Origin: Candidatus Sumerlaeota bacterium
Lineage (GTDB): Bacteria; Sumerlaeota; Sumerlaeia; JAFGJS01
Direction: 5' to 3'
NCBI GenBank assembly: GCA_016928995.1
Contig: JAFGJS010000142.1
Coordinates: 1 to 47,899 of the forward strand
Length of the DNA stretch: 47,899 nt
The notes beneath the pieces are model-generated. The model made no database searches. It was not told where the DNA came from and saw only the letters and a list, made by a program, of their open reading frames with translations. Position 1 is the stretch's first letter. Every line of letters begins with the position of its first letter. Of this stretch, positions 1,333-46,085 are shown one piece after another. The position numbers and the translations under genes are program-made.

Positions 1333-3486
1333 CTATTTACGAGTCAGTTCCGCAATTTCGGCGTGGCTGAGTGCGTAGTTATAAATGCGAAAGTCATCAA
1401 TGCTGCCGTTGAACAAGGGATCCGGCCATTGGCTTTTGCCGATGTAGTTATGCTTTGGTTTAAAGGACGATGGATTCAACGAGATGTAACCTAAACTGAT
1501 GGGCTGTCCATCCAGATAAATCCAGCCTGTGTTTCCGCAAAGCGTCACTGCCAGATGATGCCATTCGCCGACAGGCAATGGCGGGGCGTCCACGAGCTGC
1601 TCGTCGTCTTTGTCTTTGATGGCCAGGCGCAGCGAGCGCCGGCCGGAATTCGGCGTGAGGAAGATGTACTGCGAGGTGTCGTTGCCAAAATCAAAAATGC
1701 GTTGCCAGGCGTCGCCGCCGTTCCATTTCACCCAAGCGGCTACGGTCATGTCGTTGCGGTCGGCCACAACGGAAGGCAGAGTCACGTAATCATCGGCGCC
1801 GTCCAATTCGAGCGCCTGGCCGATCTTTCCGTCAACATATGCAAGCTTGCCTGACGTGGATGCATCATGGGCGCCTGTGCCGTCATTGGCGCCGCCATCG
1901 AACCGGTAATGCGCGATGAGCTCGCCGCGATTGCTCAACTCAACCGGCTCGAAGCGCCATTGCTGGCCATGGCCTGCCGGGCCGTCCTGTTGCGTGATGC
2001 TCGAACCGTCCAGGTTTTCACCGTCGCCGCCGTCCATGTACTTGCAGCTGTGCCCGTTCCGCACGTAGAAGTATCCATCGCCGGCGTCTTCGAGAAACCA
2101 TTCCTGCAGCGTGTTGTCGGCCATGCCCCATTGCCGGATATTCGCGCCGCTTTCGGTCTTCCAGTCGGCGACCTCGGCCGTTCTTCCGCAGTGCGCGGCT
2201 TTCAAGCGATAATAACCGAAACCGGTGCGCGTGATGTCCCACTGTTGATGCAATCCTCCGGTGTAAGCCGCCTGACGGATGTCCGCGCCGTTTTCCGCGT
2301 TCGCGTCAGCGACTTCCAAGGCCAGGCCGCTGTGGCGGTTGACGATCTTGCATCGCTTGCCATCGATCGCCGGCGGCATCTCGTCGCCGTTCACATCAAT
2401 ATCGAAATACTTGTCGTCGCCGGAAACGGTCGAGACCAGGAATTCACGCGCTGGTCCGACGCCATTGTAATACACGTCGTGATCCGTGCAGACGAAACGG
2501 AACATTGTCGGCGTCGCATATCTTTCATAGGCGGAGGCAAAGCCGCGGATCCGGCCGTCCGGCGCGCGATACACCGCGGCGGCGGTCCAGTTGGCCCGGT
2601 TTTCCGCATATCCCAAGCGCATCCCCTGGCACGAGCGGACGAACATCCCGCGAGCCAAATGCGTCGGTCCCCACCAGATACCGCCTTCAAGGCCGTACTC
2701 GGCGCCGACGATCACCTCGGCGATACTATGGATTTCAGGATTGAATGGCGTGTCGCCATTGGCTCTCACGTTTAAAATGTAATTGATGTAGTTTTCCATG
2801 CTGCCCGCGATGGCGTGAGTGGTGCCGTATGACACCCGGTCTTGAATAACGTCGTACCAGGGCTGGGCGAAATCGCAGTTCAACGGACTCGGACCGGCGA
2901 GGATTGTACCTTTGTAATATGGGCTTTTTTGCAGCAGCCCCAGGATGTCATAAAGATTTTGCTTGGTGCCCTGGCCCCAGCCATAGTCCGGTTCATTGAA
3001 GGGCTCGAGCATATGGATGGGCTTTCCGGCGTATCTTTGCGTGGCTTCGAGCGCTTGAACCCAGCGCTTCGCATTGACTTCGCGCTCATTGATTTTATAC
3101 CACTCATGCGCTCCCGATTCCGTCGCCGGAACCATGGTTAACGGCTTGTCTCCCGCCATTGCCGCGACCTGCAGCATTCTGTCGATATGCCTTTTGGAAC
3201 GAGCGCCGATATCTCCGTATTCATCCAGCGGTTCGTCGATGAAAAAACAGAACCGCACCATGTCGATTTGATCGGCGCCCATATGAACGATGCAGTTGCG
3301 CATGTTGTCGGGACTGGGCCAGGCGGTGTCCGCGCCCCATGTCGCAATTGATTTCGTCGTCCCTGGATCGCTCACGCTGAAGTAAACCGTGGTCTCCTCA
3401 GCCTGGATCGTCGCTGAAGCTAGCACGCTGAGCACGATCAGGATTATACGCTGCGTGTTCGTGGTTTCGCTGAATAATTTTTTCAT
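1333..3486 (-). CDS. Secreted clan GH-A-like glycoside hydrolase with ricin-type and LamG-like C-terminal domains
   Basis: 717 aa. Residues 1-29 are a signal peptide. Residues about 33-370 look like a (beta/alpha)8 glycosidase. EPFNEPDYGW at 161-170 matches the asparagine-glutamate acid/base motif of clan GH-A, with E165 the likely acid/base. A second glutamate, E257 or E263 in the IAEVIVGAEYG segment, is the candidate nucleophile. Residues about 376-518 form a ricin-type beta-trefoil with repeated QQW/QEW motifs. Residues about 525-715 form a LamG-like jelly roll (LIAHYRFDGGANDGTGAHDA, then GSIDDFRIYNYALS). Both accessory modules usually bind glycans. It lies on the same strand as the GH51-type gene, so the pair probably attacks one plant polysaccharide. 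I cannot assign the GH family number. Start chosen at the first ATG, preceding the signal peptide. Confidence 0.78.
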   Translation of the reverse strand: MKKLFSETTNTQRIILIVLSVLASATIQAEETTVYFSVSDPGTTKSIATWGADTAWPSPDNMRNCIVHMGADQIDMVRFCFFIDEPLDEYGDIGARSKRHIDRMLQVAAMAGDKPLTMVPATESGAHEWYKINEREVNAKRWVQALEATQRYAGKPIHMLEPFNEPDYGWGQGTKQNLYDILGLLQKSPYYKGTILAGPSPLNCDFAQPWYDVIQDRVSYGTTHAIAGSMENYINYILNVRANGDTPFNPEIHSIAEVIVGAEYGLEGGIWWGPTHLARGMFVRSCQGMRLGYAENRANWTAAAVYRAPDGRIRGFASAYERYATPTMFRFVCTDHDVYYNGVGPAREFLVSTVSGDDKYFDIDVNGDEMPPAIDGKRCKIVNRHSGLALEVADANAENGADIRQAAYTGGLHQQWDITRTGFGYYRLKAAHCGRTAEVADWKTESGANIRQWGMADNTLQEWFLEDAGDGYFYVRNGHSCKYMDGGDGENLDGSSITQQDGPAGHGQQWRFEPVELSNRGELIAHYRFDGGANDGTGAHDASTSGKLAYVDGKIGQALELDGADDYVTLPSVVADRNDMTVAAWVKWNGGDAWQRIFDFGNDTSQYIFLTPNSGRRSLRLAIKDKDDEQLVDAPPLPVGEWHHLAVTLCGNTGWIYLDGQPISLGYISLNPSSFKPKHNYIGKSQWPDPLFNGSIDDFRIYNYALSHAEIAELTRK

Positions 3487-3740
3487 TTTGCCGTCCGATT
3501 GATATTGTGTAGGCGCATCTGATAGAGCGATGACGCCGTAATCTATTGAGCCTTGGACATCTGTAGTTGCCTTGGCAGCCGCGTTTTGTCAATAGATCAT
3601 CGATTTGTTGAAATACGAGGGCATCACTGTCTCGCTTTATTCAGACCGCTGGGCGGCGCTTTTCGTTTGCCCGCTGCGCTAAAACTATGGATTGATGCCG
3701 ATGATTGATATTTGATTTTGAAGCGGATTTTCTGGCGCAA

Positions 3741-4505
3741 TCAACGCAACCAATTTTGCAATAAGTCATGCTCGACTCGAGGGAGATGGGCAATGGCTGA
3801 TTCGATTTGAGTTTTGAATTCTCCGGATAAATCGGGACTGCTGTTTTCCTTCATGGTTGTCAGCTGCTGGAAGGTTTTGGAGCGGCGAGGTTCGGTTTCG
3901 AAGAAGCAGACGCCGTTGAAACTGAAACGGTGGATGCTGCAAGGGCCATGCTCGAGCAGAGCGGCCTTGTGCGCGGCTGCGGCGTAGCCTTTATGCGCGG
4001 CGAAGCCGTACTCCGGCCATTCCACGTCGTAGCGGCGCATAAGCCGGTCACGCGTGACCTTGGCCAGGATCGAGGCGGCGGCCACGCTGGCTGAGGTGGC
4101 GTCGCCTTTTTTGATCGCCTCCACGGCGCATGGCTGGTCAGGGATTTTCAGGTAGTCGCTGATGATGTGATCCGGCTGCGTTTGCAGCTGCGACAAGGCG
4201 CGCTGAGCGGCGCGCAACGTGGCTTGCAGGATATTGATCCGGTCGATCTCGTCCGCCTCGGCGATGCCTACGCCCCAGGCAATGGCGCGGGCGCATATCT
4301 CGTCGTAGAGTTCTTCGCGGCGCTCTTCCGGCACTTGTTTCGAATCGTTCAGCCCGTCGAATCGCGCCTCGGGCGGCAGGATCGCCGCCGCAGCCACGAC
4401 CGGTCCGGCCAGCGGACCGCGTCCGGCTTCATCCACGCCGGCCAACTGCGCGCAGCCAGTCCGCTCGCGCGCCGCTTGATCGTATTGATATAAAGCTTCA
4501 GTCAT
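3741..4505 (-). CDS. rnhB: Ribonuclease HII
   Basis: 254 aa. It cleaves the RNA strand of RNA-DNA hybrids and single ribonucleotides embedded in DNA, in the cytoplasm. The diagnostic motif GVDEAGRGPLAGPVVAAA lies at residues 23-40, with catalytic D25 and E26. The DSK motif (54-56), D117 in IISDYLK, and the KGDATSASVAAASILAKV block match the RNase HII fold. The core ends near residue 215. About 40 further residues, not needed for the fold, extend the usual 200-215 aa length. No strong Shine-Dalgarno sequence precedes the ATG at 4505. It stands alone between the secreted hydrolases and the Fic gene. Confidence 0.96.
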   Translation of the reverse strand: MTEALYQYDQAARERTGCAQLAGVDEAGRGPLAGPVVAAAAILPPEARFDGLNDSKQVPEERREELYDEICARAIAWGVGIAEADEIDRINILQATLRAAQRALSQLQTQPDHIISDYLKIPDQPCAVEAIKKGDATSASVAAASILAKVTRDRLMRRYDVEWPEYGFAAHKGYAAAAHKAALLEHGPCSIHRFSFNGVCFFETEPRRSKTFQQLTTMKENSSPDLSGEFKTQIESAIAHLPRVEHDLLQNWLR

Positions 4506-6095: not shown

Positions 6096-7676
6096 TTATT
6101 TCTCCTTCTGTTCATCATCCAACTTAACAAGGTCCGCGAGCAAGATGTTGAACGGAGCTGCGCGCAATTGCTCGTCGAACGCCTTGAGCGTCGCGTTCAG
6201 CTTGTTGAATTGCTCCGACTCCACCAGTGGCAATTCTTCCTTGCGGCCCAGATGCTCCCAAGCCTCCAGCACGTCGTGGACCTTGAGCCGGTCGAGCGGC
6301 CGTCCCGGTTGATATACTGAATCCTGATTGCGCGGACTCACCACTTCGGCCAGTACGCCGCATTGCGTCAGTTGATTGAGCAAGTCGTTCACCAGCCGGA
6401 TGGGAATGCCGAGGTTGAGCGAAATCGTGCGCGCGTCCGGCGCCGCTTCGTTGTGCATAAAGCATTCCACGCAAAACAGCGTGATGCGCAGCGTCAGCAG
6501 CCGCTTGAGCGAATGGCTGGCTTCCAGACAATCCGTCTCGTATTCGAACAGGTCGGCGTTCTGGTGCGCGAAGGAGATCTGTCCGCCAAGCAGCACGATC
6601 TGCCAGGAGAGCTGCACCCAGATGATAAAGAGCGGCAGCGCGGCGAAGGAGCCGTAGATCGCGTTGTAGTTCGACACAATCACCTGCAGGCTGATGTACA
6701 CCGTCTGCACCACGCTGTAGATCGTGCCGCCGATGATCCCGGCTGTGAACGCCGGAACGAGCCGCACCTGCGTGTTCGGGATCAACATGTACATCAGCGC
6801 GAAGAGGGGCCAGATCACCGTCATCTTGGCCTGCGAGAGCATCAGCGCGACGAACGGCTTGAGCGTGCTAAGGAAGGTGCTGCTTTCCGTCAACACGTGC
6901 ACCTTCGTAGCCAGCCACACGGTGATGCTGTTCGAAAAGACGAACATCACCGGCAGGATGAACGCGATCGCCAGGTAGTCGCTGAACTTGCGCGCGAGCG
7001 TGCGCGAGCGATGCACGCCCCAAATTTCATTGAACGCCCGCTCAATGTTGTTCAGCACCTTCATCATCGTGAAGATCAGCACGAGCACGCCGAAGCCCGC
7101 GATCAGGCCGCCGCTGGTTTTTTCCAGCAGCTTGTCCGCGAACTCGATGAGCTTGTCCGCGATCTGCACGTACGCCTGGGCCGCATTGGATGGCGCTTCG
7201 ACCGTCGTTGTTGTGCGTTCGTCTTCATTGGATGTCGCAGGCGCATCAGACGCCGCAGCCAGCTCTTGACCGAAGACATCCGTGCTTGCTTCGTCCGCGA
7301 AGGTCAACACGCCGCTCGTTGTCTTGTCTTGCTGTTTCCCATTGCGAGCCAGGGTGTTGGTGATTTGCGTCACGAATCGCGATGTGTCCGATTGATCGAC
7401 GAAATTGCGGATTTCTTGTTTCAAGCGGTCTTGCAGGTTGAAGCCCTGCGCAATGCCGAACGCCAGCGCCAGCACCGGCACAATAGAAAGCAAAGAATAC
7501 AGCGTCAGCGCCGCGGAGCGCAGCCCGCAACGTTCGTGAAAAAATCCGCGCAAGGATAAGATGACGATACGCGCGATCAGAACCATCTGGCGTTGCTTCC
7601 ACGCCAACGATTGACGTTGAACGCGCCAGACGTCGTACTGCACGAAATGAACGATGCGGTCAATCTGACGCTTCAT
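6096..7676 (-). CDS. YihY/BrkB-family inner-membrane protein with C-terminal winged-helix-like region
   Basis: 526 aa from the ATG at 7676, chosen over the longer frame because GGAGG lies just upstream. It overlaps the stop of the nuclease gene (7660) by 17 bp, so the two are probably co-translated. The N-terminal block around CGLRSAALTLYSLLSIVPVL and the following hydrophobic segments match the YihY/BrkB family (formerly called RNase BN), multipass inner-membrane proteins of uncertain function. A low-complexity acidic and threonine-rich insert at about residues 90-165 (DERTTTTVEAPSNAA) separates the first two membrane segments and is unusual for the family. After the last membrane segment, residues about 400-500 look like a winged helix, as seen in long members of this family. 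Confidence 0.85.
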   Translation of the reverse strand: MKRQIDRIVHFVQYDVWRVQRQSLAWKQRQMVLIARIVILSLRGFFHERCGLRSAALTLYSLLSIVPVLALAFGIAQGFNLQDRLKQEIRNFVDQSDTSRFVTQITNTLARNGKQQDKTTSGVLTFADEASTDVFGQELAAASDAPATSNEDERTTTTVEAPSNAAQAYVQIADKLIEFADKLLEKTSGGLIAGFGVLVLIFTMMKVLNNIERAFNEIWGVHRSRTLARKFSDYLAIAFILPVMFVFSNSITVWLATKVHVLTESSTFLSTLKPFVALMLSQAKMTVIWPLFALMYMLIPNTQVRLVPAFTAGIIGGTIYSVVQTVYISLQVIVSNYNAIYGSFAALPLFIIWVQLSWQIVLLGGQISFAHQNADLFEYETDCLEASHSLKRLLTLRITLFCVECFMHNEAAPDARTISLNLGIPIRLVNDLLNQLTQCGVLAEVVSPRNQDSVYQPGRPLDRLKVHDVLEAWEHLGRKEELPLVESEQFNKLNATLKAFDEQLRAAPFNILLADLVKLDDEQKEK

Positions 7677-43993: not shown

Positions 43994-44069
43994 TGGGGAG
44001 TGGTGCAATTGGCAGCGCGCCTGACTCTGGATCAGGAAGTTGGAGGTTCGAGCCCTCCCTCCCCAGCCA
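43994..44069 (+). tRNA. tRNA-Gln (anticodon CTG)
   Basis: 76 nt including an encoded CCA. The acceptor stem TGGGGAG pairs with CTCCCCA. The anticodon stem CCTGA/TCAGG holds the loop CTCTGGA, giving anticodon CTG (44027-44029) for CAG codons. The T arm GGAGG-TTCGAGC-CCTCC is perfect. The U1 start is typical of tRNA-Gln. Confidence 0.96.
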
Positions 44070-44229: not shown

Positions 44230-45080
44230 TCATTCATGGATTCACGGATTGAATTCCCGCCTCGTCATTAATTGACTGACGATGCTTTCAGAGTTGAAGC
44301 GTGCTTACATGAACAAGATTCGATCGGCGCAATGCGGAAAAAGAGCAGGATGATCAATGGCTTGAATCCAATCTGCGAACTTTGACATGTAGCGGTCGGC
44401 AATCTGAAAGCATATCAATAAAATGCTGAATGGGATTCTGCCCTTAGTGATCGGAGGCATACTGAGCGAGAACATCGCTCCAAAATTGCGTTATCTTCGC
44501 CTTGATTCTTGACGGACTGCATAAGTCATTTCTTGCGCTCTCGAAAGAATCTTTGATTTGTTTCTTACGTGTACGTCCTATCGTTTTTTTTCAGCAATAA
44601 TAGTGCTATCATCGTGGCGTTCTCGCACACGGCGATGACGGCTTGTGTTGTTTTCATGGCTCTATCCTGGTTTTTTTACATTATCCAAAAAGAAAGAACC
44701 GCGATAATATTTTGAGGCTTTATTCAGTTAAGAAGCAAAGTGTGGTTTGATCGCTTCTGGAAAACTACCAGATATGATATTTATGCAGATCAAGTTTATT
44801 TCGTGGATTCAATAGACGGTTCAGCAACGACTTTGGGATCTATCAGCATGTTTTTGCATCTCACACATAATTCAAAATAGTGGTGATATGTATTTTTATG
44901 CATAATTTTAAGATTTCACTTGAAATCGTCAATTTCTCTCTGTTAGGTTAGTTCTGTGGTATGTAAATGAGTTGTGCAAAATAAACATTAAAGTTTGCAG
45001 TTATTTCAAAATTATCGATTTACGCATTATTTAGATTTTCCCCGATAGTCATCTTTGAATCCATTTTGAAGGAGCCGGTC
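44070..45080. other. Gene-poor AT-rich region downstream of tRNA-Gln
   Basis: About 1 kb with no clear gene, visibly richer in A+T than the rest of the window. It contains the terminator at 44190-44231 and two small open frames worth noting. One, at 44565-44657 (minus), encodes 30 aa starting MKTTQAVIAVCENATMIALL. The other, at 44740-44871 (plus, GTG start), encodes 43 aa including WFDRFWKTTRYDIYADQVYF. Neither has a ribosome binding site. The composition and emptiness fit a decayed insertion beside the tRNA. Confidence 0.5.
44190..44231 (+). terminator. Terminator after tRNA-Gln
   Basis: ATCCCCC (44190-44196) pairs with GGGGGAT (44221-44227), followed by TTTTC. The intervening loop is long (24 bases). 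Confidence 0.5.
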
Positions 45081-45962
45081 ATGCGTTTCGAAGCCGAACT
45101 TTCCCGTCCCATATCCCGTATTATTATGTTATTCATTGTCATATCTATGATTATCTTCGCGCCGCGGGGGGGCGTTGCGGCGACATGGACCATTGGGAGC
45201 GGGGGGGATTTTGGGGCGCTGGCCGAGGCGCTGGGTTCGGCGTCGGTGGGGGAGGGGGATACGCTGGAACTGGCGACGGGGGCGCATGCTTGCGGGGCTT
45301 TGACGTGGACGAAGCGGGTGAGCATCACGGGGGCGGAGGGCACGGGCGTTGGATCGGGGCGCGGAGTGGGCTTGGGCGTGGGTGTAGGTTCAGGCTCCGG
45401 GTTCCGGGTTCCGGGGTTTGGGCTTGCGCCGTGGTGGGCGCTGCGGGCGGTTTGGAATGTGCGGCAGGTTCCCTGGCGTGTGCGTTTTTTTCCAGGCGCA
45501 TGGCGCGCATGCTGGTGCATGTGGAGGGTGCGCTTGGAACGATACGGCTCGTTCTTGAGTGAATGGAACAGCTGCCAGAGGGCATGCCGTGGTTGCCAAT
45601 GTGGATGGCGAAGGTGCCTTCGTCGATTGCGGACGTGCCAAGGAGTCCGGCCCGCATGGCGAAATGGATACGGCAGCAACCTAGGCGCATACCCTTTGTG
45701 CCTTAACTCATATGATATGTGCTCAGGCAAATGTGGTTTATTCCTTGGAATGCACGATATATTCCTTGGCAAGAATCGCTCATGCCACGGCACCTGTGGC
45801 ATATTCCTTGGAGTATATCGATTATTTTTTGCAACGTGTTTTATGCTCCTTGGAATTTGTCGTACATTTTCCCGCTTCTATTTGGATAAGTCGCGGTTTA
45901 ATGCGCTTAATTTCAATGATATACGGATTTTATTGTTTCATGCTGGAGTCGAGCCAAGATGA
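45081..45962 (+). CDS. Secreted beta-helix-like N-terminus running into a 21-bp repeat array (possibly a pseudogene)
   Basis: The frame from ATG 45081 (AAGGAG upstream) encodes 293 aa. Residues 1-34 are a signal peptide. Residues about 35-90 read like the start of a pectin-lyase-type beta-helix (WTIGSGGDFGALAEALGSAS, GEGDTLELATGAHACG, LTWTKRVSITGAEG). After about residue 93 the sequence turns into Gly/Val-rich GVGSGRGVGLGVGVGSGSG over a G-rich run at 45350-45420. From about residue 130 it becomes Trp/Cys/Arg-rich heptapeptides (CGLFLGM, HDIFLGK, CGIFLGV) dictated by the 21-bp array. The array keeps this frame and one minus-strand frame open, so coding here is uncertain. A real repeat protein, or a beta-helix gene broken by repeat expansion, are both possible. 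Confidence 0.4.
   Translation: MRFEAELSRPISRIIMLFIVISMIIFAPRGGVAATWTIGSGGDFGALAEALGSASVGEGDTLELATGAHACGALTWTKRVSITGAEGTGVGSGRGVGLGVGVGSGSGFRVPGFGLAPWWALRAVWNVRQVPWRVRFFPGAWRACWCMWRVRLERYGSFLSEWNSCQRACRGCQCGWRRCLRRLRTCQGVRPAWRNGYGSNLGAYPLCLNSYDMCSGKCGLFLGMHDIFLGKNRSCHGTCGIFLGVYRLFFATCFMLLGICRTFSRFYLDKSRFNALNFNDIRILLFHAGVEPR
45466..45885. repeat. Degenerate 21-bp tandem array, about 20 units
   Basis: Cutting the sequence every 21 bases, with units starting at 45466+21n, aligns a conserved core [T/G]CC[T/A][T/A]GG at unit positions 4-10, then a more variable 10-11 bases. The best copies, TATTCCTTGG at 45739, 45760 and 45802 and TGCTCCTTGG at 45844, are spaced 21, 42 and 42 bp. Others include GTGCCAAGG (45635), CATGCCACGG (45781) and TGTGCTCAGG (45718). 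In many units CC-NN-GG can form a tiny hairpin (TGCCACGGCA, TTCCTTGGAA). Copies to the left are more diverged. There are no flanking cas-like genes. Confidence 0.75.
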
Positions 45963-46085
45963 AAAGTTTGGATTGACAGCCGCATGGAATGATATAGACT
46001 GACTCATAGGTTTTCAATGATGCAACCGCATACAAGGCGGTGGATTTTTCATCCGCTTCAATCCATACAACCCAAGGAGCATATC

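Follow-up and report, generated by a model that had tools for sequence, protein, structure and literature searches.

The locus and its flanks

The window, i.e. the whole 47,899-nt stretch of DNA that we analysed, contains a tandem array with a 21-bp period, located between the remains of a beta-helix-type gene and another gene, hereafter called the partner gene. The coordinates of these features are listed in Table 1. The beta-helix-type gene broke off near 45341, before the array, and this fragment is a flank that lies outside the array-gene system. On contig C109 (L002:285-1285, G000), an IS-like insertion was found to interrupt the sequence preceding the beta-helix gene; the homologous site in the window (44722-44900) carried no IS-like element. 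A tRNA-Gln gene was present at 43994-44069, approximately 1.4 kb to the left, separated from the array by a gene-poor interval. Finally, we observed a perfect 12-nt complementarity between an array unit (45842-45853) and the region of the partner ribosome-binding site (46072-46083), which includes the common AAGGAG and may be due to chance.

Table 1. Position, strand and description of the features identified at the array locus in the window.
Feature	Position	Strand	Description
Beta-helix-type gene, 5' end	45081..45341	+	76% identical to the copy on contig C109; upstream region from ~44868
Pro-rich-linker-like stretch	45328..45425	-	Flank; minus-strand match to genes of C85 and C109
Array, left extension	45422..45483		Strong unit at 45464, weaker units at 45443 and 45422; symmetric-PWM scan
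Array, core	45484..45882		19 exactly phased 21-bp units; consensus GnATnTKCCWWGGMAnATnC-like, 20 bp plus 1
Array, strongest stretch	45736..45861		TTCCTTGG cores at 45741, 45762 and 45804; CTCCTTGG at 45846
Promoter-like TTGACA-16-TAGACT	45973..46000	+	In the interval from array to gene; identified only by its match to the consensus
Shine-Dalgarno-like AAGGAG of the partner gene	46074..46079	+	Read from the sequence
Partner gene, 224 aa	46086..46760	+	Helical hairpin 9-88; Fn3-like domain 126-222

Period, symmetry and spacing of the array

The first-pass annotation had described a run of some 20 degenerate units recurring exactly every 21 bp. This description was borne out, with 19 units in phase and two to three more, shifted by 1 bp, that extend the array to the left. 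In the comparison with shuffled controls that it had suggested, lag 21 stood far above the shuffles: identity at this lag over positions 45466-45885 was 0.44, whereas dinucleotide shuffles gave 0.255 (z = 8.6) and none of the 500 reached as high a value. The remaining top autocorrelation lags were 42, 63, 84, 105 and 126. When the contig was scanned in 210-bp windows, the array had the highest lag-21 score (0.48), followed by a score of 0.46 at 7014. The G+C content dropped from approximately 62% to 35% along the array, with the phase being kept, and conservation was uneven among columns (P ~0.015).

The array unit is palindromic as a whole. Its profile scored 0.385 against its own reverse complement, versus 0.313 for column permutations (P = 0.0002), the dyads being centred on columns 9.5 and 20, and a model derived from the plus strand also detected the array on the minus strand. 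Since complementarity inside the units was no higher than across units, the dyad symmetry is a property of the consensus and not of single hairpins; the 4-bp mini-hairpin towards which the units had been said to tend was therefore recovered in the consensus, but not for individual units.

The three units of the left extension sit 1 bp off the core phase, which corresponds to one 1-bp slip in the array, against 187 departures from the consensus. The noncoding part of the flanking paralogue alignment showed approximately 1 indel per 10 substitutions. At this flank rate, 19 indels would be expected in the array (P ~1e-7); assuming a rate of 0.03 instead, P was 0.02. With one slip observed for 19 indels expected, the spacing of the array is maintained.

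The array sequence model, run on its own genome and 39 others, returned no match except the array itself. In viral contigs, a pattern scan for CCNNGG or TTCCTTGG recurring every 21 bp yielded many unrelated tandem repeats, none of them resembling the array of the window.

The partner protein and its homologues

The AlphaFold2 model of the partner protein (mean pLDDT of 78) consisted of a helical hairpin (residues 9-30 and 34-88) followed by an Fn3-like domain of eight strands (126-222), whose placement relative to each other is uncertain (pTM of 0.43). Foldseek matched this model to Fn3 domains from the PDB and, in the viral library, to Fn3 proteins and phage tail proteins. No match to the partner family was found in Pfam, NCBIfam, PHROGs or PADLOC, nor in a search for defence systems. 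Family searches and the structural model revealed no recognisable DNA-binding domain, and family, structure and defence-system searches revealed no Nop, Cas or nuclease domain; a search for the Nop domain across members of the partner family gave no match either.

Among 84,980 species genomes, a single match to the partner protein was found, L268 in a KSB1 MAG, which shared 77.5% DNA identity with the partner gene of the window over the gene. Two further full-length copies, L276 and L277, were present in the window's genome, and a relative from the same class carried a homologue, L275. The latter gene (1495-2157, minus strand) was broken by a single in-frame TAG. Profile scans of viral contigs added L293 (on the contig of L286), L294, L295 (on the contig of L290), L296 and L297. 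No partner homologues were found in the plasmid and phage collections searched.

Arrays upstream of the partner homologues

A 21-bp array was located directly upstream of ten genes (the partner gene of the window, L268, L275, L276, L277 and L293-L297). An array was thus present at 10 of the 10 first-copy genes of full length, which belong to about seven independent families and were delimited as a set post hoc, and at 10 of the 13 full-length genes overall. No array was found at L287, L288 and L289, which are second copies located farther along contigs whose first copy has one, nor at L281, L300 and L301, which are distant, N-terminal-only homologues from another phylum. The viral arrays (L293-L297) ended approximately 45-65 bp before the gene.

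Lag-21 z values ranged from 6.5 to 9.1 in the ten arrays; for reference, lag-21 identity was at least 0.43 in 3.6% and at least 0.48 in 0.4% of 2,300 random 700-bp viral windows. The consensus was palindromic (P ≤ 0.008) in all arrays except that of L268 (P = 0.055, full 11-unit test). Units within an array were only 45-60% alike, and the array consensus was unrelated between families, the 21-bp period being common to all. We searched for within-unit covariation across the arrays and detected none. The L293-type motif pattern also matched other 21-bp repeats that had no gene of the partner family.

The periodicity was thus present at related loci, upstream of related genes, the reverse of the refuting outcome named in the first-pass annotation. 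Its occurrence before partner homologues in several bacterial and viral genomes suggests that array and partner gene form one two-part unit.

A 22-bp palindromic array (P = 0.01) was also observed at L278:2535-2765 (G000:C122), approximately 190 bp upstream of a different gene. This gene likewise had an Fn3-like end, contained an in-frame stop, and preceded a C-terminal scrap of a partner-family gene; in a search of relatives, its own family was represented only by L278 itself. This single case hints that such arrays may accompany more than one protein family.

Divergence and transfer of the arrays

The arrays of L293-L296 were orthologous over nine units without a gap. The viral arrays (L293-L297) could be split into 12-nt repeats and 9-nt spacers; those of the window and L268 were not cleanly divisible in this way. 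Among the four orthologous arrays, variable positions accounted for 7% of the half-sites GGA/TCC, 36% of the 9-nt spacers and 37% of the core middle. The core was GGAACRYGTTCC in the L293-type arrays versus GTCGCACGCGAC in L297, with an unchanged dyad register. Despite these different repeats, the last three spacers (7-9) were alike between the L293-type arrays and L297: the first (gactgaagt) was identical, the next matched at 7-8 of 9 positions and the last at 5-6 of 9, but at 2 in L296. On-diagonal spacer similarity exceeded off-diagonal similarity by 2.5-3.8 standard errors, mostly owing to these three spacers.

Array and gene were common to two viral backbones with different upstream genes, similarity starting at the first unit; between L293/L294 and L295/L296, it stopped just past the gene. 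The right boundary was less clear, as L293 and L294 shared their left backbone and not their right flank. Because it is shared across backbones from the first unit on, the array-gene pair looks like a transferable module. The genes abutting the arrays differed, including histone-like, capsid and terminase genes and, in the window, the truncated beta-helix gene.

Two of the viral contigs showed further features around the unit. The terminase large-subunit gene of L297 (858-2727, minus strand) apparently lacked its N-terminal part where the array begins. In L295, a Vsr-like endonuclease gene (3685-4104, minus strand) was located directly downstream of the array-gene unit and was adjoined by a possible restriction gene, both identified by eye.

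A proposed role as phased dyad DNA sites

Among the options listed in the first-pass annotation, protein-binding sites on one helix face fit best, given the dyads, the two-turn period and the conserved half-sites. We therefore tentatively favour, with a confidence that falls a little short of an even chance, a reading in which the array is a series of helically phased dyad DNA sites bound by a symmetric protein and constitutes the cis half of a two-part unit. This half would comprise some 9 to 22 non-coding dyad sites spaced two helical turns apart (21 bp; 22 bp in one related case), and the second half would be the gene directly following, whose product of approximately 225 aa combines a helical hairpin with an Fn3-like domain. 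A symmetric (dimeric) protein may bind all units from one side of the helix, which would build a regular nucleoprotein fibre. The binder could be the partner gene product, the natural candidate because of its position and its co-transfer with the array, or a host factor that co-evolves with the gene. The array would then have an operator-, iteron- or centromere-like role, either controlling the downstream gene or maintaining or moving the unit. As the motif is locus-specific, site and binder would switch specificity together.

The dyad symmetry, the two-turn period, the retention of half-sites over spacers and the independence from unit order all point to a symmetric protein on one DNA face. 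The arrays at all ten first-copy genes, the dyad register kept between L293-type arrays and L297, the near-absence of indels and the sharing of array and gene between two viral backbones also speak for this reading. Moreover, the lack of within-unit covariation and the mostly absent effect of unit order on folding (see below) suggest that the sites act singly, in DNA, and not as paired RNA. Four observations argue against these phased binding sites. The partner protein has no recognised DNA-binding fold; the site is changed at every locus, even among the three copies in one genome, which is unusual for an operator; the kept spacers 7-9 of the L293-type arrays and L297 are not predicted by simple sites; and the symmetry of the L268 array is weak.

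Alternative explanations

The kept gene-proximal spacers do not follow from a binding-site model and leave room for a guide-like reading. In its broadest form, to which we give a small chance, the locus would represent a new array-protein system, in which a short palindromic-repeat array with 9-nt spacers, replaced as a whole from locus to locus but retaining part of its spacers, and an Fn3-like partner would together perform sequence-specific recognition, guide-like or self-templated, as a mobile unit of bacteria and viruses. More narrowly, the array might be transcribed into RNA that is cut into units, with the 9-nt spacers recognising targets and the partner or another factor serving as effector. 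The division of the viral arrays into 12-nt repeats and 9-nt spacers is in keeping with this, as are the retention of spacers 7-9 and the repeats themselves, which are similar within a locus and different between loci, as in TIGR arrays (PMC12045711). However, in nine arrays the repeats showed no odd/even alternation, no effector domain of the Nop, Cas or nuclease type was recognised in the partner, spacers were more variable than half-sites among orthologues, and the 12 + 9 split was not clean in the window and L268. The guide-like array, already among the options of the first-pass annotation, thus gained the split and the three kept spacers in the viral arrays, but neither alternation nor an effector, and we consider it unlikely.

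A role of the array as the recombination or transposition end of a non-autonomous mobile unit, i.e. a cluster of recombinase sites with the gene as cargo, appears to be just as doubtful. The extent of similarity between L293/L294 and L295/L296, from the first unit to just past the gene, and the variety of genes that the arrays abut are both in keeping with such an end, but no matching array was present at the opposite end, no common recombinase is known, and locus-specific motifs would require locus-specific recombinases.

A structured non-coding RNA, in which the palindromic repeats fold into a hairpin-rich leader controlling the gene, is less likely, and we regard it as improbable. Folding was indeed more stable than in dinucleotide shuffles for the window (z = -3.3), L293 (-3.7) and L277 (-4.0), although only slightly so for L297 (-1.4). 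Nevertheless, shuffling the order of the units barely altered the folding energy in 16 of the 18 strand tests, and within-unit pairing was not accompanied by covariation; the stability of the RNA is thus a by-product of palindromic repeats. Moreover, Rfam covariance models gave no match to the array up to E = 1.

An old minisatellite, decayed within a dead gene, is very improbable. The array does come after a beta-helix gene that has been truncated and a stray piece of linker sequence, and its own sequence was found nowhere else in its own genome. Nevertheless, a minisatellite consists of tandem-duplicated units without spacing constraint, and the array, with a single indel for its 187 differences and its uneven column conservation, does not behave as such. 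In addition, arrays of identical period and unrelated sequence precede the same gene family elsewhere. This option of the first-pass annotation was accordingly ruled out.

The idea that the array codes for a heptapeptide repeat has almost no probability left. The period is a multiple of three, and one plus and one minus frame are open, as had been noted. Such openness is nevertheless expected from the column dinucleotides (P = 0.21 and 0.28 for the plus and minus frames, respectively; joint P = 0.05), as estimated by comparing stop counts with shuffles preserving columns and dinucleotides. No coding signal was detected in any of the six frames based on stops, BLOSUM or codon usage: in none of them did amino-acid similarity between units exceed that of shuffles, and codon usage was, in every frame, under the 5th percentile of the real genes of the window. 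Furthermore, the related arrays have no commonly open frame, that of L277 containing at least two stops in each of its six frames, and differences among the orthologous viral arrays followed no three-base rhythm. The array of the window is non-coding, and heptapeptide coding was ruled out.

Significance and comparison with known systems

The array is real and constrained, and is part of a two-part unit that is undescribed in the literature searched and whose function we infer. We did not find the array-gene arrangement in the open papers searched, which included few subscription papers and preprints. It associates a non-coding array of helically phased palindromes with a single protein family, both in bacteria and in viral contigs. 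Because spacing and symmetry are kept while the sequence is replaced at each locus, similarity searches would miss such arrays. Natural switches of site specificity would become available for study if the sites are bound by the partner or by a host factor; if the spacers are functional, this would be a spacer array of a new type.

Iteron, operator and centromere arrays are made of tandem, helically phased sites, dyad or direct, and the array of the window has this organisation. In iteron and centromere-type arrays, such as plasmid iterons, the parC of type II partition systems or pSK1 par, the site is nearly constant and is bound by a known DNA-binding protein. The arrays described here resemble them in having tandem, helically phased sites of conserved spacing beside a gene, but differ in that the motif changes from locus to locus, the units are only 45-60% alike and no DNA-binding fold is known in the neighbouring protein. 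Should the binding-site reading prove correct, the unit may be regarded by specialists as an unusual operator or iteron array.

As in CRISPR arrays, palindromic repeats are combined with spacers. CRISPR-Cas loci are, however, characterised by cas genes and near-identical repeats of ~23-47 nt, whereas the unit here measures 21 bp instead of ~60, its repeats are as degenerate as stated above, and no cas gene occupies the partner slot.

TIGR arrays consist of two alternating repeats (edge and loop), with 8-12-nt repeats and 9-nt spacers, adjacent to a gene for a Nop-domain Tas protein (PMC12045711). Short locus-specific repeats, an adjoining gene and an occurrence in prokaryotes and their viruses are features common to TIGR-Tas and the present arrays, and the viral arrays L293-L297 also have 9-nt spacers. 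Here, by contrast, even and odd units did not alternate in the nine arrays in which this was sought, there is a single palindromic repeat class, and the protein is Fn3-like instead of Nop-containing.

Finally, Cluster O mycobacteriophages contain 17-bp dyad repeats of unknown function (PMC4351075). Both these and the viral arrays consist of many short dyad-symmetric sites in phage genomes; the Cluster O dyads are dispersed and nearly invariant, whereas the arrays described here are tandem, phased and tied to one gene.
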